DNA of 11,356 bases from Syntrophaceae bacterium (GTDB lineage: Bacteria > Desulfobacterota > Syntrophia > Syntrophales > UBA5619). Made by a program: the position numbers and the translations under genes. Position 1 is the first letter of the stretch; each line of letters begins with the position of its first letter. Under the pieces are notes generated by a model. That model made no database searches. It worked only from the letters and a program-made list of their open reading frames with translations, and was not told where the DNA came from. The stretch is from NCBI GenBank assembly GCA_919902745.1, contig CAKKRN010000115.1:1-11356 (forward strand). Reading direction: 5' to 3'. Of this stretch, positions 1 through 11,356 are shown piece by piece.

Positions 1-71
1 GTGAGGAGTGAAGAGTGAGGAGTGAGGAGTGAAGAGTGTTTTCACCTCGCACCTAACACCTTACGCCTCAC
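1..71. repeat. Degenerate heptamer array with inverted arms upstream of rplT
   Basis: Positions 1-38 are five units of the 7-bp word GTGARGA (GTGAGGA at 1, 15 and 22; GTGAAGA at 8 and 29) plus GTG. After a TTTT spacer, 43-71 is a second run in the same 7-nt register with words CACCTCG, CACCTAA, CACCTTA and CGCCTCA. The second arm is roughly the reverse complement of the first (GTGAGG against CCTCAC at 66-71), so the block could fold into an imperfect hairpin. The array may extend left of the window. It lies where an rpmI-rplT spacer would be expected. Its function is unknown; similar 7-nt arrays occur at three other places in the window. Confidence 0.8.
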
Positions 72-93
72 AATAAAGATGAGGAGATAAGCA

Positions 94-453
94 ATGCCGA
101 GGGTAAAGAGGAGCTTGACGGCTCACAAGAAGAGAAGAAAGGTTCTGAAGGCGGCCAAGGGGTTTTTGCTGTCCAGAAGCAAGCTGTTGAGAACGGCCAC
201 GGAGGCGGTCAGCCACGCGATGTCCTATGCCTACCGGGACAGACGGGTCAGAAAACGGGAGTTCCGGCGGCTTTGGATTGCAAGGATCAATGCTGCCGCA
301 AGGATGAATGAAATATCCTACAGCCGTCTGATCGACGGGATGCACAAGGCGGGCGTCGAGATCGACCGGAGGGTCCTCGCGGATCTGGCCGTTCATGAAC
401 CAAGCGGATTTTCGGAGATCGCGACCATCGCAAAGGGTGAGCGGCAGGCATGA
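94..453 (+). CDS. rplT: 50S ribosomal protein L20
   Basis: This gene encodes L20, a 23S rRNA-binding protein needed early in assembly of the large ribosomal subunit. The 119-residue product has the usual length and the family N-terminus [19 protein letters not shown], a very basic RNA-binding tail, followed by the conserved globular part ([24 protein letters not shown], here around residues 46-69 and split by no gap; [11 protein letters not shown] near 72-82). The start is set by GAGGAGAT about 8 nt upstream. The stop codon overlaps the pheS start in an ATGA arrangement, so the two are probably translationally coupled. In many bacteria infC-rpmI-rplT is autoregulated by L20; infC and rpmI would lie left of the window. 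The leader visible here is occupied by repeats, so no L20-binding structure can be recognised. Confidence 0.97.
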
Positions 454-1466
454 CGGAAGCGTTGAGGGTCCTTCGGGAACAGGCGGAGGCGGAGCTCCGG
501 CAGGCCGGAACGGAAGAGGCGTTCCAGGCCATCCGCACCCGCTATCTCGGCCGGAAGGGGTTGCTGACCGGATTGCTCCGCAATATCGCCAATGTGGCGC
601 CCGCGGAAAGGCCCCAGTTCGGCAAGGAGTGCAACGAAGTCAAGGAGGAACTTTCCGCAAGGATCGATGAGCTCCTTGCGGGACTCGCATCCTCCAAAAA
701 AGATGAGCTTCTACTCCGCGAACGGATTGATGTCACGCTGCCCGGGAGGGGCGTCCGGCATGGGCGGCTCCATCCGGTCACGCAGGTGCGGGAGGAGATC
801 TGCCGCATCTTTGCCGGCCTCGGTTTCTCGGTCGTGGAAGGGCCGGAAGTCGAACTGGATTACTACAATTTTGAAGCGTTAAACATTCCCAAGGACCATC
901 CGGCGCGGGACATGCAGGACACCTTCTACGTCGAGGAGAATATCGTCCTGCGCACCCACACCTCCCCGGTCCAGGTCCGGATCATGGAAAAAACGAGGCC
1001 GCCGGTGAGAATTCTCTCGCCGGGCCGTGTCTACCGACGCGATTCGGATATTTCTCATACCCCGATGTTCCACCAGATCGAGGGTCTGCTTGTGGACCGG
1101 GGCATCACCTTCGGCGATCTCAAGGGGGTCCTGACGGTTTTCCTCAAGCAGATATTCGGAGAGGATACGGCGCTCCGCTTCCGTCCCAGCTTTTTCCCCT
1201 TCACGGAACCGAGCGCGGAGGTTGACATCCGGTGCGTCATCTGCCGTGGCCGGGGATGCAGGGTCTGCGGGCAGAGCGGCTGGCTGGAGATCCTGGGGTC
1301 GGGTATGGTGGATCCCGAGGTGTTCCGAAACGTCGGTTACGATCCGGACGAATTTACCGGTTTTGCCTTCGGGCTGGGTCTGGAACGGATTGCGATGCTC
1401 AAATTCGGGATCTCGGACATCCGTCTTTTTTTCGATAATGATATGAGATTCCTGGAACAGTTTTGA
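450..1466 (+). CDS. pheS: Phenylalanyl-tRNA synthetase alpha subunit
   Basis: PheS is the catalytic alpha subunit of the cytoplasmic alpha2beta2 enzyme that charges tRNA-Phe. The 338-residue protein has an N-terminal coiled-coil arm (about residues 1-90), which contacts tRNA, and then the class II synthetase core. Visible core signatures are [18 protein letters not shown], the [11 protein letters not shown] block, [20 protein letters not shown] (motif 2 region) and the motif 3 arginine in [13 protein letters not shown] near the C-terminus. A cysteine pair cluster CVIC...CRVC sits in the loop before [11 protein letters not shown]; similar CxxC loops occur in many bacterial PheS proteins. The ATG overlaps the rplT stop by 4 nt. 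Unlike many genomes, pheT does not follow closely: a 186-bp spacer filled with repeats separates them. Confidence 0.97.
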
Positions 1467-1493
1467 CGATTGCGGAATCCATCTTTTATGGAT

Positions 1494-1520
1494 GGGGACA
1501 CGATGCGGCATCATGTCCCC
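1494..1520. repeat. REP-like 27-bp palindrome, copy 1
   Basis: The 13-nt arms GGGGACACGATGC and GCATCATGTCCCC flank a single central G. The arms pair except for one C/A mismatch. The GGGGACA...TGTCCCC ends and 27-bp length match the copies at 4446 and 8728. It begins 27 nt after the pheS stop and has no U-tract, so it is not an evident intrinsic terminator. It looks like a REP-type extragenic palindrome; a RAYT transposase as mobiliser is inference, since none is encoded here. Confidence 0.75.
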
Positions 1521-1556
1521 TTGGCGTCCGTGAAGCGAGCAAGAGAAGTTATGTAT

Positions 1557-1574
1557 GGTGCGTCGTGACGCACC
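1557..1574. repeat. Small perfect hairpin between the 22-bp repeats
   Basis: GGTGCGTC and GACGCACC form a perfect 8-bp GC-rich stem with a 2-nt GT loop. It lies between the two 22-bp direct repeats. No T-run follows (GCTTGTTTCTG), so a terminator role is doubtful. It may be another extragenic palindrome or an mRNA-stability element. Confidence 0.6.
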
Positions 1575-1594
1575 GCTTGTTTCTGAGAAGAAAA

Positions 1595-1622
1595 ACACTT
1601 AGCACTCAGTCCTCAGCACTTG
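1595..1622. repeat. Short heptamer array before pheT
   Basis: Four 7-nt units in register: ACACTTA (1595), GCACTCA (1602), GTCCTCA (1609) and GCACTTG (1616). The 20-nt stretch 1601-1620 is the exact reverse complement of 6620-6639 in the ptsH-ptsI spacer, about 5 kb away, so this belongs to the same repeat family in the opposite orientation. Outer AAAACA (1592-1597) and TGTTTT (1621-1626) flank it as an inverted pair. Confidence 0.75.
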
Positions 1623-1652
1623 TTTTCGTGAAGCGAGCAAGAGAAGTTCCTT

Positions 1653-4064
1653 ATGCAAGTCAGTCTGAAATGGCTTCGAGATTATGTGGATGTCGATCTT
1701 TCACCGGAAGAGCTGGCGGACCGGCTGACCATGTCCGGTCTGGAAGTGGACTCCCTGAACCGAATCGAACCCGCCTTCAGCGGGGTCCGGGTCGCCCGGA
1801 TTGTTTCCATCAAGCCCCATCCCCATGCCGAGCAATTGTCCCTCTGTGAGGTGACCACGGGAGACGCAACCTATCCCGTTGTTTGCGGTGCAAAGAACAT
1901 CCACGCCGGTGATATCGTTCCGCTGGCGCCGGTTGGAGCGATCCTTCCCGCCGGAGATCTCATCCGGAGCGCCCGGATCCGTGACGAGGTTTCCGAGGGG
2001 ATGCTCTGTTCCGAAGAGGAACTCGGAATCGGCGGCGACGCCTCGGGGATCATGCTTCTCCCGTCCGATTTTCCGCTGGGAAAAGGGCTGGCGGAGGCGC
2101 TCGATCTGCGGGACGCGGTTCTCGATATCGGCGTGACCCCGAACCGGTCCGATTGTCTCTCCATCGTCGGCGTGGCGCGCGAGGTGGCGGCCATTACGGG
2201 AAAGACGCTGCGTTATCCCGTTGCCGTCGTCATGGAAAATGACGAGGATATCCGCCGGATCACATCGGTTTCCATCGAGGATCCCGATCTCTGTCCGCGT
2301 TACACGGCCCGGATCATTAAAAATGTCCGGATCGGACCGTCGCCCTTATGGATAAGGCGGAGGCTGGAGGCGGTCGGTCTCCGCTCGATCAACAATATCG
2401 TGGATGTGACCAACTTCGTGATGATGGAGCTGGGGCAGCCCCTGCATGCCTTCGATTTCCGCTTCCTTGCCGAAGGAAGGATCGTGGTCCGGCGTTCCCG
2501 TGCGTGCGAGACGTTCGTTTCACTGGACGGAAAGGAGCACACCCTGGGGGCCGACACGCTGATGATCTGTGACGGCGTCAAACCGGTGGCCATCGGCGGG
2601 GTCATGGGCGGGCTCAATTCCGAGGTCAAGGAAGAGACGGGGACGATCCTGCTTGAGAGCGCCTATTTCAACCCCGCTTCCATCCGTCGGACCGCGCGCG
2701 CGCTGGCGATGGGAACCGACGCCGCCTTCCGTTTCGAGAGGGGGATTGATCCGGAAGGGGTTGTCCGGGCGCTTGACCGTGCGGCAGGGCTCATGGCGGA
2801 GCTTTCCGGAGGAACGGTTTGCCGGGGAATGATCGATCAATACCCGGGAACCGTCGCGACGGTTAGAGACATTCCGCTGCGCGTGAAGCGTGTGCGGGAT
2901 ATCCTCGGGACGGCGGTTCCGGAAGAAGAGATCGTCCGCATCCTGAAAAGCCTGGAGATGGAGATCGACCAGCGCGGCAATGGGGTCATCCATGTTACAC
3001 CTCCAACCTGCCGTGTGGATATCACCCGGGAGATCGACCTCATTGAAGAGGTTGTTCGGCTGCACGGTTATGACCGGGTTCCGACGACCCTTCCCGCCGT
3101 TTCGGTGATCGCTGTCGGAAGGATCGACGAACAGAGGAAGACGGAGGCGTGGCTCCGGGAGATCATGACCGGCGCCGGTTATACGGAGGTGATCAACTAC
3201 AGTTTTATTCCGTCCGTTGCCGTCGACCAGCTCGGCTTGGATGCAGCCGACGAGCGGCGCCGTCATGTCCGGATCAGAAATCCTTTGACGGAAGAACAGG
3301 CGGTGATGCGGACCACCATGGTCTACAGCCTTCTGCGCAATGCCGCGAGGAACGCCGATGTCGGCCGTTTTGACCTGAAGATCTTCGAGACGGGCCGAAC
3401 CTTCATCGGGATGGGAGCAGGGAAGCAGCCGCGGGAACAGAACCGTGCAGCCTTTCTGACCACAGGCCGGCGCTATGAAGAGCGGTGGCATTTTTCGGAT
3501 CTGCAGGCGGACTTCTATGATCTTCAAGGGTGCGTCGAGAATATCCTGGATCTGCTGCGGATACCCGCCCCCTCATTCCGGGCAGGCGTTCATGAGCCTT
3601 TCCTCCATCCGGGAAAATCCTGTGGTGTTTTCAGCGGGGAGGAGCAGGTTGGATTTCTGGGCGAGGTGCATCCGGATATTCTCTCCCGTATGTCGTTGAC
3701 GGGACCCGTCGTGGTGTGCGAGATCGATCTCGATCTGCTGACCGCAAAATATTCCACGAAGACGACCTTCCGCGCCATCCCAAGGTTCCCGTCGAGTTCG
3801 CGGGATGTGGCCTTTCTGATCCGCCTGGGGGTGGAGGCCGGAGAACTGCTCCGGACAGCGACGGATTCCGCTGAAGAATTACTTGAAAAAGTTCAAATTT
3901 TTGATGTATACGAAGGTAAAAATATCCCTGTGGGGACGAGGAGCTTGGGATTGCGGTTTTCATATCGCAGTACGGACCGGACCTTGACGGATGACGAGGT
4001 GAATGAGGTCCATGCACGGATTGTGAAGAAGATTGTTCATGCGTCGGGGGCGTCAATCAGATAG
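1653..4064 (+). CDS. pheT: Phenylalanyl-tRNA synthetase beta subunit
   Basis: PheT is the large beta subunit of PheRS; it binds tRNA-Phe and edits mischarged Tyr-tRNA while PheS performs the activation. At 803 residues it matches the bacterial full-length form. Domain order is typical: N-terminal MQVSLKWLRDYVDVDL, an EMAP-like tRNA-binding domain (about 40-150), the B3/B4 editing module (about 200-380; NNIVDVTNFVMMELGQPLHAFDF), the B5 domain (about 400-475; ending PPTCRVDITREIDLIEEVVR with the HGYDRVPTTLP link), the catalytic-like core (NPLTEEQAVMRTTMV, LKIFETGRTF) and a C-terminal ferredoxin-like anticodon-binding domain (about 710-803; FPSSSRDVAFL, FSYRSTDRTLTDDEVNEVH). AAGAGAAG within the second 22-bp direct repeat serves as Shine-Dalgarno sequence a few bases upstream. 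ihfA follows after 31 nt. Confidence 0.97.
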   Translation: MQVSLKWLRDYVDVDLSPEELADRLTMSGLEVDSLNRIEPAFSGVRVARIVSIKPHPHAEQLSLCEVTTGDATYPVVCGAKNIHAGDIVPLAPVGAILPAGDLIRSARIRDEVSEGMLCSEEELGIGGDASGIMLLPSDFPLGKGLAEALDLRDAVLDIGVTPNRSDCLSIVGVAREVAAITGKTLRYPVAVVMENDEDIRRITSVSIEDPDLCPRYTARIIKNVRIGPSPLWIRRRLEAVGLRSINNIVDVTNFVMMELGQPLHAFDFRFLAEGRIVVRRSRACETFVSLDGKEHTLGADTLMICDGVKPVAIGGVMGGLNSEVKEETGTILLESAYFNPASIRRTARALAMGTDAAFRFERGIDPEGVVRALDRAAGLMAELSGGTVCRGMIDQYPGTVATVRDIPLRVKRVRDILGTAVPEEEIVRILKSLEMEIDQRGNGVIHVTPPTCRVDITREIDLIEEVVRLHGYDRVPTTLPAVSVIAVGRIDEQRKTEAWLREIMTGAGYTEVINYSFIPSVAVDQLGLDAADERRRHVRIRNPLTEEQAVMRTTMVYSLLRNAARNADVGRFDLKIFETGRTFIGMGAGKQPREQNRAAFLTTGRRYEERWHFSDLQADFYDLQGCVENILDLLRIPAPSFRAGVHEPFLHPGKSCGVFSGEEQVGFLGEVHPDILSRMSLTGPVVVCEIDLDLLTAKYSTKTTFRAIPRFPSSSRDVAFLIRLGVEAGELLRTATDSAEELLEKVQIFDVYEGKNIPVGTRSLGLRFSYRSTDRTLTDDEVNEVHARIVKKIVHASGASIR

Positions 4065-4095
4065 GAACGGATCAATCCATCGGAGGAGGCAGGAA

Positions 4096-4371
4096 ATGAC
4101 AAAGATCGACATTATTCAGGATGTGTACGAAAAGCTGGGATTTTCGAAGAAGGATTCGGCAAGGATTGTTGAGTCCGTATTCGATATCATCAAGGACAAC
4201 CTGACAACGGGTGAGAAGATCAAGATTTCCGGTTTTGGAAATTTTGTCGTCAAGGAGAAGAAAGCCCGGCGGGGGAGAAACCCCCAGACCGGAGACGAGA
4301 TCGCCATCTCGGCGCGAAGGGTGCTGACCTTCAAGTCCAGCCAGGTCCTTCGGAAGGCGCTGAACGATTAA
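4096..4371 (+). CDS. ihfA: Integration host factor alpha subunit
   Basis: This gene encodes the alpha subunit of IHF, a sequence-specific DNA-bending nucleoid protein acting in recombination, replication and sigma-54 promoter looping, normally as an IhfA-IhfB heterodimer. The 91-residue protein belongs to the HU/IHF family: helical N-terminus MTKIDIIQDVYEKLGFSKKD, the KISGFGNF turn near residue 45, and the DNA-binding beta arm with RRGRNPQTGDEIAISARRVLTFK (about 56-78). The arm carries the Arg-Asn-Pro intercalating tip. The location after pheT and the ARRV(L/V)TF sequence favour IhfA over HU. An in-frame upstream ATG at 4033 overlaps pheT, but the start at 4096 matches family length and is preceded by GGAGGAGGCAGG. 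The pheST-ihfA linkage is conserved from E. coli to deltaproteobacteria. Confidence 0.94.
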   Translation: MTKIDIIQDVYEKLGFSKKDSARIVESVFDIIKDNLTTGEKIKISGFGNFVVKEKKARRGRNPQTGDEIAISARRVLTFKSSQVLRKALND

Positions 4372-4379
4372 TCCGAAGC

Positions 4380-4405
4380 GGTCCGCATTCTTAAGGCGGC
4401 GGACC
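4380..4405 (+). terminator. Weak hairpin after ihfA
   Basis: GGTCCGC (4380-4386) can pair with GCGGACC (4399-4405), a 7-bp stem with a 12-nt loop beginning 8 nt after the ihfA stop. There is no T-run downstream. It could slow polymerase or protect the upstream mRNA 3' end, but it is not a canonical intrinsic terminator. A second weak stem (CCGGG/CCCGG, about 4411-4427) follows. Confidence 0.25.
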
Positions 4406-4445
4406 CAATGCCGGGGACGGAACCCGGGACAGCACTTATGATACT

Positions 4446-4472
4446 GGGGACACCTTGCGGCAAGGTGTCCCC
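4446..4472. repeat. REP-like 27-bp palindrome, copy 2
   Basis: This is a perfect palindrome: arm GGGGACACCTTGC, central G, arm GCAAGGTGTCCCC. It is identical to the copy at 8728-8754 read on the other strand; the two differ only at the centre base. It ends 8 nt before the merR-type gene start at 4481, where a ribosome-binding site would be expected. Preceding sequence contains related GGGGACGG and GGGACAG motifs (4413-4432), suggesting remnants of a larger element. REP/RAYT affiliation is inferred from shape and ends. Confidence 0.8.
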
Positions 4473-4480
4473 GTCATTGG

Positions 4481-4822
4481 ATGATGGATAAGTCAATTCC
4501 CGATAAGTCCTATTTCCGCATCGGCGAGGTCAGCAGATTATTGGGCGTGCAACCCTATGTAATCCGCTACTGGGAGTCCGAATTCAAAACGGTCCGGCCG
4601 ATCCGAACCCGTTCCGATCAGAGACTCTACCGACACCGGGATGTCGAGGAGTTGCTGACGATCCGGAAACTCCTCTATGAGGAGAATTTCACCATCAACG
4701 GGGCCAGAAAACAGCTCCAGCGGATGCGGGGTGAGGAGGCGGTCACGGGACGGGATCCGCGTGAAGGGCTTCTGGATGAAATCGAGAAGGGGTTGCGCCG
4801 GATCAGGGAAATCGTAAGTTAG
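4481..4822 (+). CDS. Short MerR-family transcriptional regulator
   Basis: The 113-residue protein carries an N-terminal MerR-type winged helix-turn-helix (about residues 10-80): [26 protein letters not shown], then [36 protein letters not shown]. The remaining 30 residues are too short for a ligand-binding domain and contain no cysteines, so it is not a metal or redox sensor of the classical MerR/SoxR sort; a dimerisation helix is more likely. Such short MerR proteins often follow pheT-ihfA in deltaproteobacteria; the regulated genes are not known to me. The start at 4481 (a second ATG is at 4484) has no good Shine-Dalgarno sequence, because the 27-bp palindrome ends 8 nt upstream. Translation may therefore be weak or depend on the hairpin. 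Confidence 0.88.
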
Positions 4823-4845
4823 ATTTATGCCCGCGGGGTCAATAC

Positions 4846-4885
4846 AAAAGGCCGACGGAAACCCTCCGGTTCCGATCGGCCTTTT
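4846..4885. terminator. Bidirectional Rho-independent terminator
   Basis: AAAAGGCCGA followed by CGGAA pairs with TTCCG, a one-base bulge, then TCGGCCTTTT, giving a roughly 15-bp stem around a 9-nt loop (ACCCTCCGG). The plus strand ends in TTTT and the minus strand in TTTTGTATT. It lies between the merR stop (4822) and the end of the convergent PxxKW gene (4916), so it can stop transcription from both sides. Confidence 0.88.
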
Positions 4886-4915
4886 CATGGTGAGCCCAAG
4901 CAGCGCATCCCGCCG

Positions 4916-5197
4916 CTATTTCTTGTTTGCCCGCTTGGACGCCTTCAGCGGGTTGACCTTCTGCGTCGTTTCCTTGACATCCAGCTTCAAATGGGTGGCC
5001 GTCGGGCATTTGCCGGTCCGCCACTTTCCGGCCGGGTCCGGATAAACACGGCAGTACTTTCCCGTCGGACATTCGATGACTTTGCCGCATCCCTCGCACT
5101 TGTCGATGATGGCATTGCAGCTGCCTCCATTGAACCCGCAGCCTTTCTTCGTCATGAAGCCGCACTCGATGCCGTTTTTAATCGTCTGACAAATCAT
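4916..5197 (-). CDS. PxxKW family cysteine-rich protein
   Basis: The 93-residue product begins MICQTIKNGIECGFMTKKGC and contains nine cysteines (3, 12, 20, 27, 34, 37, 43, 49, 64). Residues 55-59 are PAGKW, the motif naming the PxxKW cysteine-rich family, and a Lys-rich tail follows. Cysteine spacing (including CEGC at 34-37) suggests bound metal or an Fe-S/Zn site, but no function is established for the family, which I know mainly from sulfate-reducing and related deltaproteobacteria. No signal peptide is visible, so it should be cytoplasmic. The start at 5197 is chosen because AGGAGAG lies just upstream; an in-frame ATG at 5293 would add 32 residues without a ribosome-binding site and runs through a terminator-like hairpin. 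The gene is single, with its own promoter candidate and a shared terminator. Confidence 0.85.
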   Translation of the reverse strand: MICQTIKNGIECGFMTKKGCGFNGGSCNAIIDKCEGCGKVIECPTGKYCRVYPDPAGKWRTGKCPTATHLKLDVKETTQKVNPLKASKRANKK

Positions 5198-5254
5198 GGT
5201 TCTCTCCTCTTTCCTCTTTAGTGTTCTCTCTTCCGTGGTCGACTTGTTGAATTC

Positions 5255-5304
5255 AAAAAACCGACCCGCTTCCAAAACCATCTCCATGGCCAAGTCAGGT
5301 CGGT
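5255..5304 (-). terminator. Terminator-like hairpin inside the PxxKW gene leader (possible attenuator)
   Basis: Read on the minus strand, ACCGACC (5304-5298) pairs with GGTCGGT (5266-5260), immediately followed by a run of T's (5260-5255). The loop is 31 nt, long for an intrinsic terminator. It lies between the promoter candidate and the ribosome-binding site of the PxxKW gene, so it could end transcription prematurely. GACTTG in the loop is complementary to CAAGTC downstream of the T-run, offering an alternative fold. I do not recognise a known riboswitch class. Confidence 0.45.
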
Positions 5305-5329
5305 CATTCCCTTTCCTTAAAGGCGTGCC

Positions 5330-5358
5330 TTGCTATCAGAATATGAAATGGATGTCAA
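5330..5358 (-). promoter_or_regulatory. Sigma-70-type promoter candidate for the PxxKW gene
   Basis: On the minus strand a perfect TTGACA (5358-5353) is followed after 17 bp by TAGCAA (5335-5330), a poor but acceptable -10 hexamer. The transcript would start near 5323 and carry a leader of about 125 nt before the ATG at 5197. Confidence 0.5.
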
Positions 5359-5430
5359 GAGAAAAATCCAGAAAAATCCAAAATCCTATCTCGCCGAAAT
5401 CGCGTAAAAAAATGGCTGCACCTTGGGTGG

Positions 5431-5466
5431 TGAATAGATTGACTTTCGCGGGCTATTCATGATAGG
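5431..5466 (+). promoter_or_regulatory. Possible promoter/operator before the PTS genes
   Basis: TGAATAG (5431-5437) and CTATTCA (5453-5459) form a perfect 7-bp inverted repeat around a 15-nt centre that contains TTGACT, a possible -35 hexamer. The sequence 17 bp further on (ATAGGC) is a weak -10. The overlap of an inverted repeat with a -35 would suit an operator, but the evidence is thin. Confidence 0.25.
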
Positions 5467-5597
5467 CAACGCCTTCAACGGGTGGCGGAAGCTGCCATCA
5501 AGCCTCGGCATGGACTTGAGGGCGGAGGGTTCAACCGCAGTTGATCAAGGCTGCTGCGCCTCCGGTCGGCGAAAACAGATCCGGCAGGGCGGTTCTG

Positions 5598-6326
5598 ATG
5601 AAAAGATCGACGCTGTTCAGCATTTTTATGCGCTCACTGACCATTCAGGTTTCCTTCAACTTCCGGAGGATGCAGAACCTGGGTTTTGCCTTTGCGATGT
5701 TCCCGCTGATCGCGGAACAGCGGAAGGACCGGAGCGAGATGGGGGTTTTTCTTGCGAGACACTTGCAGATGTTCAACACCCATCCCTACCTCGTCTCTTC
5801 GGTCATCGGTTCCGTGGTCCGGATCGAGGAAGAGGCGTGTATACCGGAGTCGGCGGAGGATCTGAAAAAGGCGCTCATGGGTCCTTACGCGGCGATCGGC
5901 GATTCCTTTTTCTGGGGGGCGCTCCGGTCATTTTCTGCCGTCGGGGCCGTGATCCTGGCTCTCGCGGGGACTCTTCTGGCGCCGCTCGCCTTTCTGCTGC
6001 TCTACACCCCCGCTCATCTCTGGGTTCGCGTGAAGGGGTTTCTCGAAGGCTACCGGTGCGGCCGAAACGGGATTGATTTTATCCGGGCGTTGGATCTTCC
6101 GAAAGAGTCCGTTAAATTCTGTTATCTTTCGCTTATCCTGATCGGTTCCCTGGCGGCCGTGGCCGTTGACACCGCCTGCCGTTCCTGGAACTTTCCACCC
6201 GGAATGCCGGGCGGGGCGGTTGGATCTGTTTTACTCCTTCTTGTTATTGCAGGGGTTCGCCTCGGGATCTCTTCGGTGAAGATCCTTTACGGAATGAGCC
6301 TCTTGTGCATGGCGCTCTCGATCTGA
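5598..6326 (+). CDS. PTS mannose/fructose/sorbose-family IID component
   Basis: EIID is an inner-membrane subunit that, with EIIC, forms the sugar channel of mannose-family phosphotransferase systems. The 242-residue protein shows the family hallmarks: FNFRRMQNLGFAFAMFPLI near residues 20-38, FNTHPYLVSSVIGSVVRIEEE around 58-78, and LMGPYAAIGDSFFWGALR around 90-107. Hydrophobic segments follow near residues 110-140, 172-192 and 205-240. It is shorter than E. coli ManZ (283), mainly toward the C-terminus. I chose ATG 5598 (AGGG 8 nt upstream); a TTG at 5541 would add 19 residues that do not look like the family. It is separated from ptsH by 1 nt, so the two are co-transcribed. No IIA, IIB or IIC gene is in the window; what substrate it handles cannot be told. 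Confidence 0.88.
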   Translation: MKRSTLFSIFMRSLTIQVSFNFRRMQNLGFAFAMFPLIAEQRKDRSEMGVFLARHLQMFNTHPYLVSSVIGSVVRIEEEACIPESAEDLKKALMGPYAAIGDSFFWGALRSFSAVGAVILALAGTLLAPLAFLLLYTPAHLWVRVKGFLEGYRCGRNGIDFIRALDLPKESVKFCYLSLILIGSLAAVAVDTACRSWNFPPGMPGGAVGSVLLLLVIAGVRLGISSVKILYGMSLLCMALSI

Positions 6327-6327
6327 T

Positions 6328-6597
6328 ATGGTGGAAATAAGAACGTTTGAAATTACGAACAAGCTGGGAATTCACGCCCGGGTGGCCGCCAAGCTGGTGG
6401 AAACGGCCAATCGCTTTCAGGCGGAGACCTTTCTGGAAAAAGACGGCGTCGAGGTCAACGGACGAAGCATTCTGGGGATTCTCACGCTCTACTGCCCCCA
6501 GGGAAGTCGGTTGACCGTCCGTGTTGTGGGAGTCGACTCGGGGGAGGCGATCGCGGCCTTCGCCGGCCTGATCGAGGCGAAATTCGGAGAGACGTAA
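6328..6597 (+). CDS. ptsH: Phosphocarrier protein HPr
   Basis: HPr carries a phosphoryl group from Enzyme I to EIIA domains. The 89-residue protein has the active-site signature NKLGIHARVAAKLVE with His16 (equivalent to E. coli His15) and the second signature GRSILGILTL with Ser47, the position phosphorylated by HPr kinase/phosphorylase in Gram-positives and many proteobacteria. Both phosphorylation sites are thus intact, so the protein could serve transport and regulation. It begins 1 nt after the IID stop, suggesting translational coupling. Downstream ptsI is separated by 162 bp of repeats instead of the usual short gap. Confidence 0.95.
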   Translation: MVEIRTFEITNKLGIHARVAAKLVETANRFQAETFLEKDGVEVNGRSILGILTLYCPQGSRLTVRVVGVDSGEAIAAFAGLIEAKFGET

Positions 6598-6733
6598 AAC
6601 ATAGTGCTGAGGGAAACATAGTGCTGAGGACTGAGTGCTGAGAAAACATCGTGTTATGTTTTAGGTGTTATGTTTTACGTAAAACGTAAAACTTAAAACT
6701 TTGCGCTCAGCACTCAGCACTCAGCACTCAGTA
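6597..6733. repeat. Composite heptamer array between ptsH and ptsI
   Basis: Nearly the whole spacer is built of 7-nt units. A 16-nt direct repeat (6597-6612, 6614-6629) leads into AGTGCTG/AGGACTG units (6620-6640). From 6651 to 6699 there is an unbroken register with GTGTTAT, GTTTTAG/C, GTAAAAC (twice) and TTAAAAC. From 6706 to 6731 CTCAGCA is repeated 3.7 times. The outer arms (AGTGCTGAG against CTCAGCACT) and the inner arms (GTTTTAC against GTAAAAC) are inverted, giving a nested foldback. It is AT-rich in the middle and unlike the neighbouring genes in composition. No coding potential is seen. Confidence 0.85.
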
Positions 6734-6759
6734 CCTGTTGTTAGGGGATAGTCGATTTT

Positions 6760-8538
6760 ATGGCGGATGATCAGAAGAAAACGTTTGTGATGAAGGGGAT
6801 CGGTGTTTCACCGGGCATCGTCATCGGCAGGGCCTATCTTTTCGACCGCCAGGATGCGCAGGTTCCCTTTTACAATCTTAGCGATCCGGGCCTGATTTCC
6901 GCGGAGATCCAGCGTTTCCGTAAGGCCCTGCGGGAATCGGAAAAGCAACTCCTCGAGCTGAAGAACAAACTCGGCGATCTGGGCGGCGGCATGGAGCCGC
7001 TCTACATCATCGATGTCCACATCATGATCATGCGGGATCGCAAATTCATCGACCGCACGCTGAAGAACATCCGGGAGATGTCTGTTAACGCCGAATGGGC
7101 GGTCCGCATGACCGTGGACAAATACCGGGAGATCTTCGACCGGATGGATGACGACTATCTCCGGGGGCGCATCAGCGACATCCAATATGCCGGGCAGCGG
7201 ATTCTCACGAATCTCGCAGGAAAGAAGCGCACGGCCATCGACATGGGGGAGGGGGTCGTCATCATTGCCTCCGACCTGTCGCCTGCAGATACGGCGCAAC
7301 TGAAGATCGACAAGGTGCTTGGATTCGCCACCGATGTCGGCGGAAAAACATCCCATACGGCAATCGTGGCCCGGTCGATTACGATCCCAGCCGTGTTGGG
7401 TCTGGAGAGCATCACCCGGGCCGTCCGGACCAACGATGATATCATCATCGACGGTTCCGCCGGTGTCGTCATCGTCCATCCCGATCCGGAGATCCGCAAA
7501 CGCTACGAAGAGAAGAAAAGGCTGTACGAGAAGGCCCAGGACGATCTGCTGGATTACGCCCGTCTGCCGGCGGTGACCAAGGACCATTACGTTGTGGAGA
7601 TCGGAGGCAATATCGAATTCATCGAAGAGATTCCCTCCGCGGTTCTTCACGGCGCCGACGGGATCGGGCTTTACCGGACGGAATTCATCTACATCAATCG
7701 GGAGCAGCTTCCCGACGAGGAGGACCATCTCGCCCATTACCGCTCCGTGGTTGGGGTCAAGGGGCTTTCCTGGGCGACCATCCGCACCTTCGATCTGGGC
7801 GGCGACAAGTTCTTCCCGGACAAGAAGCCTTCCCGCGAGCTGAACCCGCAGTTGGGGCTTCGGGCCATCCGCTTCTGTCTGAAGGAGGTGGCGCTCTTCA
7901 AGGTTCAGCTTAGGGCCATCCTCCGGGCGAGCGTTCTGGGAAAGCTCCGTATCATGTTCCCGATGATTTCCGGGATCGAGGAGATCCGCGAGGCCAAACG
8001 GATTTTTACCGAGGTGAAAAACGAGCTGCTGGCCAAGGGGACGGAACTGGGAAATGATATCGAAATCGGGATCATGATCGAGGTCCCGTCCGCGGTGATC
8101 GTTGCCGAGGAACTGGCAAAAGAGGTCGATTTTTTCAGCATCGGGACGAATGACCTGATCCAGTATGTCCTGGCGATCGACCGGATCAATGAGCGGGTTA
8201 CCTACCTCTACGAACCCCTGCATCCGGCCGTCCTGCGCCTGATCAAACAGGTGGTGGATATCGGGCACAAGGCGGGGATCCGGGTGGCGATGTGCGGGGA
8301 AATGGCGGGAGAGCCGGCCTATACCATGATCCTGCTGGGGCTGGAACTGGATGAGTTGAGCATGAATCCGCTGGCGATCCCGCGTGTGAAGAAGATCATC
8401 CGAGGGGCCACGTTGAAGGAATCGAAGGCGCTCCTGAACAAGGTGATAACCCTCTCCTCCGCGTCGGAAATCCGGTCATTTGTCGGAGCGGAGATGCGCA
8501 AACGGTTTCCCGAAGATTTTCCGGTAAACGGTCAGTGA
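6760..8538 (+). CDS. ptsI: Phosphoenolpyruvate-protein phosphotransferase (PTS Enzyme I)
   Basis: Enzyme I takes phosphate from PEP and passes it to HPr, the first step of the cytoplasmic PTS chain. The 592-residue protein is full length (E. coli 575). An N-terminal HPr-binding helical domain (about 30-155) is followed by the phosphohistidine swivel domain with GGKTSHTAIVARS (active His199, E. coli His189) and the C-terminal PEP-binding barrel: GIGLYRTEFIY (Arg306), TIRTFDLGGDK (Arg342), MFPMISGIEEI, DFFSIGTNDLIQY and the acid-base Cys512 in VAMCGEMAGE. All key residues are present, so it should be active. No GAF domain precedes it, so it is the ordinary sugar-type EI rather than PtsP. The start at 6760 has AGGGGAT about 10 nt upstream, directly after the heptamer array. 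Confidence 0.96.
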   Translation: MADDQKKTFVMKGIGVSPGIVIGRAYLFDRQDAQVPFYNLSDPGLISAEIQRFRKALRESEKQLLELKNKLGDLGGGMEPLYIIDVHIMIMRDRKFIDRTLKNIREMSVNAEWAVRMTVDKYREIFDRMDDDYLRGRISDIQYAGQRILTNLAGKKRTAIDMGEGVVIIASDLSPADTAQLKIDKVLGFATDVGGKTSHTAIVARSITIPAVLGLESITRAVRTNDDIIIDGSAGVVIVHPDPEIRKRYEEKKRLYEKAQDDLLDYARLPAVTKDHYVVEIGGNIEFIEEIPSAVLHGADGIGLYRTEFIYINREQLPDEEDHLAHYRSVVGVKGLSWATIRTFDLGGDKFFPDKKPSRELNPQLGLRAIRFCLKEVALFKVQLRAILRASVLGKLRIMFPMISGIEEIREAKRIFTEVKNELLAKGTELGNDIEIGIMIEVPSAVIVAEELAKEVDFFSIGTNDLIQYVLAIDRINERVTYLYEPLHPAVLRLIKQVVDIGHKAGIRVAMCGEMAGEPAYTMILLGLELDELSMNPLAIPRVKKIIRGATLKESKALLNKVITLSSASEIRSFVGAEMRKRFPEDFPVNGQ

Positions 8539-8547
8539 AAACGGAAA

Positions 8548-8624
8548 ATGGGTCAGGGGTGATCGGTGATGGAAAGAGGGGTTCCGAATCACCCCGGATC
8601 TGTGATCTGTGACCCATAACCCGA
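8548..8624. repeat. Heptamer array and nested inverted repeat upstream of plsB
   Basis: Units of 7 nt are visible on both sides: GGGTCAG (8550), GGGTGAT (8557) and CGGTGAT (8564), then on the right GATCTGT (8597 and 8604), GACCCAT (8611) and AACCCGA (8618). Arms ATGGGTCA (8548-8555) and TGACCCAT (8610-8617) are perfectly inverted, and inside them GGGGTGAT (8556-8563) and ATCACCCC (8588-8595) form a second stem. It begins 9 nt after the ptsI stop and lacks a T-run, so it is not a standard terminator although it might reduce readthrough. Confidence 0.7.
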
Positions 8625-8639
8625 TAAGGGACGATTTTC

Positions 8640-8699
8640 ATGCGGTTGAAGAGATACACGGTTGTTCTGCAAACATTTTCAGCGATGGGGAGGGCCTAA
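8640..8699 (+). CDS. Possible 19-codon leader ORF or severed N-terminus of plsB
   Basis: An ATG at 8640 with a good Shine-Dalgarno sequence (AAGGG, 9 nt spacing) opens a 19-residue frame, MRLKRYTVVLQTFSAMGRA, ended by TAA at 8697-8699. It is in the same frame as plsB, and the chosen plsB ATG follows 6 nt after the stop. It could be a leader peptide coupled to plsB, or the original gene start cut off by a nonsense change. The residue sequence alone does not decide between these. Confidence 0.3.
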   Translation: MRLKRYTVVLQTFSAMGRA

Positions 8700-8705
8700 G
8701 AGAGC

Positions 8706-11356
8706 ATGTCCATCCTGTCGGCCTTACGGGGACACCTTGCCGCAAGGTGTCCCCTTTGGACAACTGAAATCGGCATCTACCATGCGGGGAGTCTTTATCG
8801 GGAGGAGAATTTTCCCCTTTACTGGCTGGTGCGGATGGTTCTCTCGAAGGTCCTGGTCTCCGATGAGACGGCGGAAGGGCTGAAATCCCTTGCGGAGAAG
8901 GGCGTCGTCGTCTATGCCCTGAAGAACAAGAGCCAGCTCAACAGCCTGATTCTCCGCGAACTCTCCATGCGGAAGGGGATTCCCCCGCCCGTTTACTGCC
9001 ACGGCATCAATATGATCACCTGGCAGCCGTATCCGATGGCCATCCGGGTGATCCTGTCTCATCTTTTCCACCGGATCTTAAGGAAAACAGCCATCCACTC
9101 CAACAGAATGGGCCATCTGAGCCAGATCACCCTGGAGGGAAAGACCTCCATCATCCACCTTGGGGAGTCCGAACTCTTTGAAAACCCCTTTGTCGAGGAG
9201 ACCCTTCACCGGTTGCTGGAAGCGCAGGAAGTCTCCGCCGTGCCGATCTACCTCTGTCCGGAATTGATTACCTATGGGAGGAGGCGGGAGAAGGAAGAGG
9301 AGAGCCTGATCAACATCTTCTTCGGTCAGAGCGACACAACGGATCCCATCCGTCGGGTCATCACCTTCCTCCGTTATTCCAACATGGCCTCCGTCATCTC
9401 CGCCGAACCGGTCAATCTCGCGGAATACATGAGAGCCGGCGGCGATCGTCCCCGGGAGGAGTTGGTCCGCCAGCTCCGGGAGGAGCTGATCGCGCGGATC
9501 GACGAGGAGAAGACGACCATCGTGGGGCCGATTCTGAAGTCCCGGGAAGAGATCATCGGCATGGTTCTCCGGGACAAGGCACTGGTCGCTTTCATGGAGG
9601 AGACGGCGGCGAAGGCGAAAAAGGGCAAGAGGGATGTAGCGGCTGTCCGGAAAGAGGCGAGGAAATACCTGGAGGAGATCGCCTCCGATTACAGCGATAT
9701 CTTTATCGAGATCTGGGAAAAGATCCTTACATGGCTCTGGAACAACATCTACGACGGCGTGGTGGTGGATGGCGAAGGCATTGCGAAGATCCGGCAGGTA
9801 TCCAAGAAGATGCCGTTCGTCATTATTCCCTGCCATCGGAGTCATTTCGATTATCTTCTGCTTTCATACAGCTTTTACAAGAACAACATTCAGATGCCGT
9901 TCGTGGCGGCCGGGACCAACCTTGCCTTCTTCCCGATGGGCTATATCTTCCGAAAATCAGGGGCGTTCTTTGTGCGGCGGAGCTTCAAGGGAAACGATCT
10001 CTACGCCGAGGTTTTTGCCCGGTACGTCAAGGTTCTTCTGCAGGAGGGGCTGCCGCTGGAATTTTTCATCGAGGGGGGGCGCAGCCGGACGGGGAAGATG
10101 GTGATGCCCAAGTACGGGCTCCTCTCCATGATCCTTCAAGCCTATCAGGAAAAGGCGTGCGACGATCTCGCCGCGATTCCCGTCTACATCGGTTATGACC
10201 GGGTGATCGAGGAAAAGGCATATCTCGAGGAGCTGGGCGGCGCGCCCAAAGAGAAGGAGAAGACGACCGACATGATCCGGAGCGGCAAGCTGCTCCGGAA
10301 ACGGTACGGACGCGTCTACATGAATGTCGGGGAACCGATCCTCCTCAAATCCTACCTGGCCGCTCAGGAAAAACCTCTGGAGGAAATGACGGTTGCAGAG
10401 CGGCAGGGTCTCTACCGCCGGATCGGTTACACGATCGTCAGGGCGATCAACAAGGTCTCTGTCGTGACCCCTTTTGCGCTGACCGCATCGGGGCTCCTCT
10501 GCTATGACCGGCGGGGAATTTCGCTCGGAGAGCTCCGGGAGGTTCTGGCGCTGTTTTTCGATTACCTCTCTTCCCGCAAGGTCTCGTTCGCGATGACCTT
10601 CGCCGACCGGGACAAGGCGGTGATGGAGGCGTTGAACCTCTTCGATCAGTCGGGGCTGATCTCTCGCATGGGGGCGGAGGAGGACGAGGAAGACGAGGTC
10701 GAGGAGGTTGTCTATTCACTCGGGGACGAGAAACGGATGAACCTCGAGTACTACAAGAACAACATCCTCCATTATTTTCTCCCCGTCAGTTTTGTAGCGA
10801 CGTCTGTTCTGGCAAGCCCTGAAGATATGCTTCCGTTGAACCGGATCCGCGACGACTATGCTTTTTTCAAGCGCCTCTTCCGGCATGAATTCATTTTTGA
10901 CGATCAAAAGGATGATCTGGAGGAGGTCCGGGAGACCCTCTCCTATCTCCGCGACCAAGGGATGATCGCCGGTTTCGACCGGGAAGAGAAGCCCTGGATC
11001 GAGGTGAAGGGCCGGGGCAGGACCAATCTCCTCCCCTTCGGAGGACTCATCCACAACTATATGGAATCCTACTGGGTGGTCGTCCGGGGATGTTACTATC
11101 TCCGGAAGGGGCCGAAGGCCGAGAGAGACTGGCTGAAGTACATCCGGGGGCTGGGGTCAAGGATGTACCGGAAGGGAGAGATCCGGAGGGCGGAGGCGCT
11201 GTCCCAGTCCAACTACCAGAGCGCCATCCGCTACCTGGAGGATGTGAACATCATCTCCGTGACGGAGGTGTCTGAAAAAGGGGATAAAAAATCCACCAAG
11301 CGTTACGCCTTGACGGAAAACAAGGTGCAGATGGAATCCCTCCGCCGCAGGCTGTT
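8706..11356 (+). CDS. plsB: Glycerol-3-phosphate 1-O-acyltransferase (PlsB type), 3'-truncated by window end
   Basis: PlsB acylates sn-glycerol-3-phosphate at position 1 at the inner membrane, the first step of phospholipid synthesis. The open frame gives 883 residues without a stop before the window edge. All four acyltransferase blocks are visible: CHRSHFDYLLLSY (catalytic His377 and Asp382; E. coli His306/Asp311), GAFFVRRSFKGNDLY from residue 419, FFIEGGRSRTGK (about 453-464) and IPVYIGYD (about 491-498). The N-terminal region (VVVYALKNKSQLN near 75-87) and the long C-terminal domain (YYKNNILHYFLPVSF) also match PlsB rather than PlsC. An acidic run (EEDEEDEVEE) lies from residue 658. The catalytic site is about 70 residues further in than in E. 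coli. ATG 8706 is the first in-frame start after a stop at 8697; the 27-bp palindrome encodes residues 8-17, so the extreme N-terminus is uncertain and no strong ribosome-binding site is seen. Confidence 0.9.
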   Translation, partial: MSILSALRGHLAARCPLWTTEIGIYHAGSLYREENFPLYWLVRMVLSKVLVSDETAEGLKSLAEKGVVVYALKNKSQLNSLILRELSMRKGIPPPVYCHGINMITWQPYPMAIRVILSHLFHRILRKTAIHSNRMGHLSQITLEGKTSIIHLGESELFENPFVEETLHRLLEAQEVSAVPIYLCPELITYGRRREKEEESLINIFFGQSDTTDPIRRVITFLRYSNMASVISAEPVNLAEYMRAGGDRPREELVRQLREELIARIDEEKTTIVGPILKSREEIIGMVLRDKALVAFMEETAAKAKKGKRDVAAVRKEARKYLEEIASDYSDIFIEIWEKILTWLWNNIYDGVVVDGEGIAKIRQVSKKMPFVIIPCHRSHFDYLLLSYSFYKNNIQMPFVAAGTNLAFFPMGYIFRKSGAFFVRRSFKGNDLYAEVFARYVKVLLQEGLPLEFFIEGGRSRTGKMVMPKYGLLSMILQAYQEKACDDLAAIPVYIGYDRVIEEKAYLEELGGAPKEKEKTTDMIRSGKLLRKRYGRVYMNVGEPILLKSYLAAQEKPLEEMTVAERQGLYRRIGYTIVRAINKVSVVTPFALTASGLLCYDRRGISLGELREVLALFFDYLSSRKVSFAMTFADRDKAVMEALNLFDQSGLISRMGAEEDEEDEVEEVVYSLGDEKRMNLEYYKNNILHYFLPVSFVATSVLASPEDMLPLNRIRDDYAFFKRLFRHEFIFDDQKDDLEEVRETLSYLRDQGMIAGFDREEKPWIEVKGRGRTNLLPFGGLIHNYMESYWVVVRGCYYLRKGPKAERDWLKYIRGLGSRMYRKGEIRRAEALSQSNYQSAIRYLEDVNIISVTEVSEKGDKKSTKRYALTENKVQMESLRRRL
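8728..8754. repeat. REP-like 27-bp palindrome, copy 3, inside the plsB frame
   Basis: Perfect 13-nt arms (GGGGACACCTTGC and GCAAGGTGTCCCC) surround a central C; this is the reverse complement of the 4446 copy. It starts 22 nt after the plsB ATG and is a multiple of three in length, so the frame stays open and reads RGHLAARCP across it. A stem this strong so close to the start codon would be expected to affect initiation. TGTCC (8708-8712) and GGACA (8758-8762) flank it as a short outer inverted repeat. Confidence 0.8.

Follow-up and report, generated by a model that had tools for sequence, protein, structure and literature searches.

Why should several different heptanucleotide words, all repeated with one period, occupy the spacers of a single contig? 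The question is raised by a stretch of 11,356 nucleotides (nt) from a Syntrophaceae bacterium (CAKKRN010000115.1, contig C115 of the draft genome G000, which is 85.5% complete at 1.84 Mb); this stretch, in its full length, is referred to below as the window, and it carries intergenic arrays of degenerate 7-nt units. The lineage is termed Syntrophus-like on the strength of its closest named locus, found in a metagenome-assembled genome labelled Syntrophus aciditrophicus (67% identity in the protein which, from its look and its operon, we take to be PheT). Comparison with other genomes revealed that the arrays in spacers are gained, lost and rewritten between near-identical genomes. The explanation favoured here, tentatively and with somewhat less than even confidence, is that they are degenerate heptanucleotide tandem repeats of spacers, with a convergent paired form, which have grown by slipped copying in 7-nt steps.

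The initial annotation had described four regions of the window as built from 7-nt units. Period-7 z scores, computed against 500 dinucleotide shuffles, bore this out strongly for two spacers, 1-93 (z 7.1; 5.3 for 14 nt) and 6598-6759 (z 8.8; 6.9 for 14 nt), and weakly for 8539-8705 (z 2.5), while the signal of spacer 1467-1652 (z 1.8) was not significant alone. Tandem Repeats Finder reported 7-nt arrays at 1-38 (GTGAGGA), 6620-6642, 6677-6699 and 6706-6731, a 14-nt array at 6651-6677, merely 2.3 copies at 8597-8612 and no array at 1595-1622. It also reported TCTTTCC (2.7 copies, 5201-5219), absent from the earlier list; this array immediately precedes a small minus-strand open reading frame (ORF), and a 10-nt repeat, AGAAAAATCC (2.1 copies, 5360-5380), lies near it. 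When the whole window was scanned for overlapping 28-pair stretches with at least 22 matches, period 7 gave 23 starts, period 14 gave one and the other ten periods within 4-15 gave none. The regions had been thought to use a different vocabulary each; in fact 1595-1622 carries, in reverse complement, the AGTGCTG/AGGACTG words found in 6597-6733, and there are three vocabularies, namely (i) GTGAGGA, (ii) AGTGCTG with an inner GTTTTAN/GTAAAAC foldback and (iii) GGGTGAT-like words. Inverted arms, proposed for three regions, are clear at 1-72 (RNA fold z -5.6) and 6597-6734 (z -9.4) and weak at 8548-8624 (z -1.8, with 14 of 200 shuffles equally good), and region 1590-1630 is unfolded (z +1.05).

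The period-7 excess is not local to the window. In 30 contigs of G000 picked by number (173 kb, with 94 spacers and 14.4 kb of spacer DNA) four period-7 stretches were found in spacers, against a shuffled mean of 0.21 (maximum 3 in 200), which is the excess over shuffled intergenic DNA that the initial annotation had called for. Periods 4-6, 8, 9 and 11-13 gave no stretches in these contigs, and periods 10, 14, 15, 20 and 21 gave 1, 4, 1, 1 and 2, respectively. All G000 DNA fetched, a set biased by the inclusion of the window and ten contigs selected for holding arrays, contained 15 period-7 stretches scoring at least 11, none at periods 5, 6, 8, 9, 11 and 12, two at period 10 and, besides the multiples 14 and 21, one or two at a few long periods. 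One period-7 stretch was found in each of the samples of G010 and G008. A second sample of 79 unrelated loci, mostly Bacteroidetes and brought in via PheT (hereafter the Bacteroidetes set), yielded 37 period-7 stretches scoring at least 11, compared with 3, 4, 8, 6, 3, 2 and 4 at periods 5, 6 and 8-12; at a lower threshold there were 58, where 20 shuffles averaged 6.2 and reached 9 at most. A common period with several words, dispersed in intergenic DNA, is supported. Since draft assemblies break at arrays, so that contigs start or end inside some of them (position 1 of the window; the ends of L297 and L298) and gaps of N fall inside others (L259, L267), all array counts are probably lower bounds.

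The Syntrophus-like DNA fetched, largely selected by the words AGTGCTGAGTGCTGA and GAGTRARGAGTRARGAG, held 66 distinct arrays, which reduced to 40 consensus words, among which near variants are frequent (arrays with N and repeats of the same 16-mer were removed from the array surveys). A single 8-kb contig of G034 (L323) contains six arrays with six consensus words, although some are probably arms of one pair. Word surveys covered 61 genomes: AGTGCTGAGTGCTGA was present at 21 places in G000 and in 8 of the 61 genomes (the AGTGCTG-bearing genomes below), its reversed control pattern giving no match in any of the 61, and GAGTRARGAGTRARGAG was found in 12, its control pattern giving 6 matches in 5 genomes. 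The AGTGCTG/AGGACTG mixture with A-rich leaders recurs in many arms. AAAA followed by 0-3 bases precedes AGTGCTGAG in 61 of 161 distinct, overlapping contexts, and the exact leader AAAACATAGTGCTGAG occurs in merely 3 distinct contexts. One long leader-plus-two-word string recurring exactly was considered and rejected, as the DNA fetched held no exact copy of it. The same inner DNA is found in L004 and L015. In G025, a member of another family, the pheS-pheT spacer (L162), which in G000 and G004 is the place of AGTGCTG arrays, contains about five copies of AGGCTAA and a right arm of TTAGCC.

G010 shares 97.6% identity with G000 over 9,781 aligned bases and nine genes, and all four window spacers differ between the two genomes, by another word, a rearranged insertion, a replacement and an addition of 64 nt, respectively. 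Upstream of the L20 gene, a C-poor left arm (1..38, + strand, GTGAGGA/GTGAAGA), inside which the contig starts, is linked by TTTT (39..42; also TTTT in G004, G008 and G013) to a G-poor right arm of period 7 (43..72, + strand, words CACCTCG CACCTAA CACCTTA CGCCTCA). Arrays of GTGAGGA type stand here in G000, G004, G008 and G013; in G010 the site is taken by four copies of GGGTAAG, and the spacer of G001 and of G006 is short and array-free. The G010 array (L168) has ATGAGGAG on each side, the right copy being the presumed ribosome-binding site, and these flanks may reflect a target duplication or chance.

The pheS-pheT spacer is 88 nt long and array-free in G010 and is reduced to 1 nt in G001, G006 and G005. 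G004 carries a complete element there (AAAACAAGTGCT ... AGCACTTGTTTT) around a nested palindrome, of which G000 retains the right half only: a remnant of the nested palindromic element (1553..1574, + strand, GTATGGTGCGTCGTGACGCACC, where G004 has GTAGGGTGCG...) and a right-arm remnant of the AGTGCTG family (1596..1622, - strand), whose left arm is present in G004 and absent in G000. This half lies between two copies (1530..1550 and 1628..1648, + strand) of a 21-nt direct repeat, GTGAAGCGAGCAAGAGAAGTT, that is single in G004 and G010. In the ptsH-ptsI spacer, which is 58 nt long and array-free in G010, G009 and G003, the G000 array occupies the place of most of those 58 nt; it consists of a left arm (6603..6642, + strand, AGTGCTG/AGGACTG with two AAACAT leaders), an inner foldback in another word (6651..6699, GTGTTAT/GTTTTAG then GTAAAAC) and a right arm of AGTGCTG words on the - strand (6703..6734). 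Finally, the spacer between ptsI and the acyltransferase gene is longer by 64 nt in G000 (167 vs 103 nt in G010). The insertion (8563..8626, placement ambiguous by 1 nt) follows TGGGTCAGGGGTGA (8549..8562, + strand), which is already present in the array-free relative G010, and contains TCACCCC, then GGATCTG TGATCTG, then TGACCCAT. In this one spacer, TCACCCC and TGACCCAT are the reverse complement of sequence that pre-exists in G010.

Similar differences were found elsewhere. L137 of G000 and a G006 locus carry arrays at a site that measures 50 nt in G010 and G004 and 67 nt in G001; L107 and L112 carry arrays where G004 has a shorter, array-free spacer; and at a site filled in G010, G001 and G004 (L107, L112 and L119) the arrays match in their outer units but not in the middle. 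One right arm is exactly 14 nt longer in G010 than in G000 (the loci compared are L267 and L248), so that degenerate 7-nt units change in copy number between close relatives, as they change in word upstream of the L20 gene. Comparison of orthologous spacers, which the initial annotation had proposed, therefore shows words that change and arrays that appear or vanish between close relatives.

In the Syntrophus-like set the paired arms have a nearly constant polarity. A survey of AGTGCTG clusters (clusters of fewer than two words and duplicates removed) found 41, of which 28 contained both orientations, 8 the reverse word only and 5 the forward word only; convergent paired arms were thus seen in 28 of 41, the forward word standing on the left in every pair. 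A detector open to any word placed the C-poor arm first in 13 of 14 Syntrophus-like pairs, with one tie; these pairs represent about ten spacers, are not all independent, and include seven with words other than AGTGCTG. An arm-pair similarity detector applied to both sets (pairs with N, repeats or similarity below 4.2 removed; 17 kept, 13 inverted and 4 direct) gave the C-poor arm first in 12 of 13, again with one tie. Among spacers of 50-400 bases without N, the best hairpins were G-left in 25 array spacers and C-left in 1 (the AGTGCTG share of these 26 was not counted), whereas spacers of this DNA that hold no array gave 84 G-left hairpins, 57 C-left (near 40% of the 141 without ties) and 15 ties (Fisher p 1e-4). 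The C-poor/G-poor asymmetry noted at the outset is therefore real and nearly strict in Syntrophus-like DNA (28/28; 25:1). A directed count of AGTRARG pairs in 155 genomes found 2 convergent loci and no divergent one, too few for more.

The same annotation had read the asymmetry as a sign of strand-specific copying of foldback templates and had held simple slippage to be insufficient. The first of these ideas was not supported. Over the 28 AGTGCTG pairs the unit order of the arms was no closer within than between elements (p 0.96, 0.97 and 0.59 at positions 2-4), an arm's own partner being no more similar to it than partners taken from other elements; arms are independent within a pair and not mirror copies. 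They can also use different words with one period (window 1-72; L323). As to slippage, units are most like their neighbours and drift with distance: the identity of units one to four places apart was 0.79, 0.71, 0.66 and 0.59 in 51 Syntrophus-like arrays (0.66-0.67 with units shuffled) and 0.72, 0.66, 0.59 and 0.48 in 37 arrays of the Bacteroidetes set (shuffled 0.60-0.61), arrays shorter than 35 nt having been removed. Slippage therefore stays viable. The idea that each word combines a constant core with a variable part was also considered and rejected, the variable columns not being contiguous (p 0.39 and 0.40).

The arms are independent and convergent, and at the one three-way site the outer units are shared but the central ones are not; together this suggests that arrays grow inward, the C-poor strand being extended from both sides. 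In the favoured explanation, units would be added or removed in 7-nt steps when a 3' end slips and re-anneals in the course of replication or repair. Extension would take place on the C-poor strand, inward from either side of a weak point (a gap, hairpin tip or break), and the ends would then be joined, sometimes trapping other DNA or copying nearby inverted sequence; template switching may in this way have produced the 64-nt insertion. Spacers would tolerate such changes because nothing there is translated. The AGTGCTG family would additionally have been carried from spacer to spacer and from one species to another, through recombination or transfer.

Several observations weigh against this explanation. 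The Bacteroidetes set is without clear polarity, the any-word detector giving 4 G-left, 3 C-left and 2 ties, although all three pairs found there by arm-pair similarity were G-left. An array partner was detected for only 14 of 66 arrays in the Syntrophus-like set and 9 of 55 in the other. The decay of unit identity is partly built in, the arrays having been detected by lag-7 similarity, and duplication with ordinary mutation yields the same decay. Some arrays look old, since G000 and G013, a member of another genus, share an element at one site whose flanks are near 80% identical, and since the L128 spacer before a gene read as pnp is 120 nt long in both G000 and G010 with few changes. Seven is not the sole favoured period in the 79 loci, where 23 stretches of period 22 scoring at least 11 were found in non-ORF DNA of 19 loci, with mixed sequence (L060, L075 and L078 are among the Bacteroidetes-set loci with such stretches). 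The sharing of AGTGCTG by many loci requires an extra step, and extension from 3' ends is deduced from finished sequence alone. Ku, the obvious marker of end joining, is found in none of the eight AGTGCTG-bearing genomes. Moreover, the slipped-copying model leaves the choice of a step of seven unexplained.

Another account, possible though doubtful, is that the arrays are plain degenerate simple sequence repeats that arose by slippage and point mutation, with pairs formed by chance or inverted duplication and no directional growth. The drift of units along arrays, the small share of arrays with a detected inverted partner and the variable columns without core clustering are what it leads one to expect; it predicts neither the strict polarity nor arms with different words but one period.

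For the AGTGCTG arrays in particular, an origin as elements resembling miniature inverted-repeat transposable elements, with terminal inverted repeats built of heptamers and an unseen transposase, seems unlikely. The A-rich leader ahead of AGTGCTG at many outer ends, the dispersed copies in 8 of 61 genomes with an empty reversed control, the identical inner DNA of L004 and L015 and the forward-to-reverse order of all 28 pairs are in keeping with such elements. However, at three sites with an array-free relative the old spacer looks replaced and not interrupted (window 6598-6759 vs G010; L137 vs G010 and G004; L107 and L112 vs G004), and the outermost bases are heterogeneous (the outer word is conserved, though the first word was the search anchor). 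The clean insertion at 8563-8626 likewise lacks a duplication longer than 1 nt, although that spacer has other words. No transposase was seen inside any array pair, no systematic transposase search having been made.

A more specific form of directional growth, which we consider distinctly unlikely, is bacterial end healing, in which the C-poor 3' strands flanking a break would grow inward in steps of 7 nt, every unit imperfectly copying the one before it, and the ends would then be joined without Ku. End joining by Ku itself was rejected: the family (PF02735) was detected in 5 of 61 genomes and in 1 of the 12 with GAGTRARGAGTRARGAG (G032), and in no AGTGCTG-bearing genome.

It is very doubtful that the arrays are selected RNA hairpins, acting as bidirectional terminators or messenger RNA stability elements between the genes of operons. 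Five of nine folded array sequences had z of -3.7 or lower, and an A-tract precedes and a T-tract follows many AGTGCTG stems. The remaining four sequences fold weakly, and the L20-upstream spacers of nine genomes (seven of the first nine, G013 and G003 not being among those folded, plus G011 and DYTH) ranged from z -5.6 to +0.2, G001 and G006 having no array; given this spread, a conserved RNA hairpin upstream of the L20 gene was rejected. Nor do arrays prefer convergent gaps: among spacers of 25-600 bases, 30 with arrays were 22 co-directional, 5 convergent and 3 divergent, against 61, 16 and 23% of 474 others (in L170 the gene map contradicts both of the divergent calls, ORF picking being in error there). 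No Rfam family reached the gathering threshold in the window.

RNA-templated (telomerase-like or DRT10-like) heptamer synthesis at DNA ends by a reverse transcriptase is most improbable, for although one reused template could account for the recurring AGTGCTG/AGGACTG mixture with A-rich leaders, and DRT10 produces tandem-repeat complementary DNA from a non-coding RNA (PMC12632851), unrelated words would each require a template of their own, and such an origin was rejected on the lack of association between AGTGCTG and RVT_1 (PF00078), which is present in 4 of the 8 genomes that bear AGTGCTG and 20 of the other 53, or 24 of 61 in all (Fisher p 0.70), and gave no match in the AGTGCTG-bearing G000, G001 (96% complete), G006 and G046 (98%), all drafts that are 78-98% complete. 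With neither reverse transcriptase nor Ku gaining support, the candidate left is slipped copying by a polymerase of replication or repair.

Other features of the window deserve mention. Pfam recognized L20, PheS, an IHF/HU-type DNA-binding protein, MerR, mannose-type EIID, HPr, enzyme I and glycerol-3-phosphate acyltransferase among its proteins. A palindromic element starting with GTAGGGTGCGT, resembling repetitive extragenic palindromes or bacterial interspersed mosaic elements (REP/BIME), lies between or beside array arms in the window (1553-1574) and in L260, L105, L021 and L137, and 4 of its 10 distinct + strand copies in the DNA fetched are near AGTGCTG words. A hairpin, GGGGACACCTTG...CAAGGTGTCCCC, occurs twice in the window (4446-4472 and 8728-8754), one copy being inside the start of the acyltransferase ORF, and its left arm matches 22 places in the other loci fetched, counted with duplicates. 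A further dispersed repeat, about 166 bp long (L128:10148-10313), takes most of the 46 matches that a 3.5-kb query gave in each of G010 and G008, and the matches of a separate 20-kb query in G000 were all weak.

How, then, do these arrays relate to known systems? The initial annotation had compared them with the heptanucleotide repeats of filamentous cyanobacteria; the short tandemly repeated repetitive (STRR) sequences, a name which we take to be that of the Calothrix repeats, are of the same general kind by published descriptions. Calothrix has three heptanucleotide repeats, resembling the present arrays as 7-nt tandem words of which several occur in one genome (PMC4692102). TAACTGA repeats of Beggiatoaceae, cyanobacteria and Bacteroidetes are alike in being mostly intergenic, near start codons, and sporadic across phyla (PMC4679880). 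Both differ in consisting mostly of perfect words (PMC4692102, PMC4679880), and only one inverted set is given among 170 TAACTGA sets in a Beggiatoa genome (PMC4679880). Prokaryotic heptanucleotide long simple sequence repeats (LSSR) have in common with the present arrays a tandem unit of 7 nt, which here exceeds chance, but they differ as well, the window arrays being very degenerate, of many words, paired and convergent. Because the near-perfect repetition of a single word is missing (adjacent units are 79% and fourth neighbours 59% identical), the arrays are not classed as LSSR and only work like one.

Closer parallels exist. In Xanthomonas, heterogeneous heptamers of the GGGAATC family (GGGANTN) are dispersed, vary extensively in length and sequence between relatives and form 70 and 75 convergent site pairs in two genomes, with the same polarity as here, for one word (PMC4692102). 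They differ in using one G-rich word and in having locations more conserved than controls, whereas here spacers are replaced (PMC4692102). If end healing were true, it would have left the convergent degenerate heptamer pairs of both lineages as scars, and the number seven would stem from a single widespread polymerase or end-holding complex. The P6b region of the Nostoc tRNA-Leu intron likewise has degenerate 7-nt units of two word classes that pair into a hairpin, with changes of copy number and insertions or deletions of other sequence, but at a single intron locus and not at many intergenic ones (PMC3488679). Geobacter metallireducens has multicopy sites of tandem heptamers or octamers, mostly paired and with some classes on opposite strands, which differ in their fixed unit number and single consensus per class and were read as regulator sites (PMC2700814).

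Published work thus already includes heptanucleotide repeats, hairpins of degenerate heptamers and heptamers in convergent pairs; the literature searched, which left subscription papers outside, gave no report that combines many words with one period, strict polarity and rapid replacement of spacers. Heptameric repeats are over-represented, and the contact length of a polymerase has been proposed as the cause (PMC4679880 and PMC4692102, citing Mrazek et al. 2007); the reason for favouring seven was thus raised in 2007, and no settled answer was met in the portions of the literature searched. Any mechanism must provide for stepwise drift of units, for arms made independently and for a C-poor strand running 5' to 3' toward the middle. 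Since four of four spacers differ between genomes that are 97.6% identical, the turnover is fast enough to be followed in culture. Set beside the systems above, the arrays are real, widespread and of a known, unexplained kind, in a new and informative form that is unusually varied and fast-changing.

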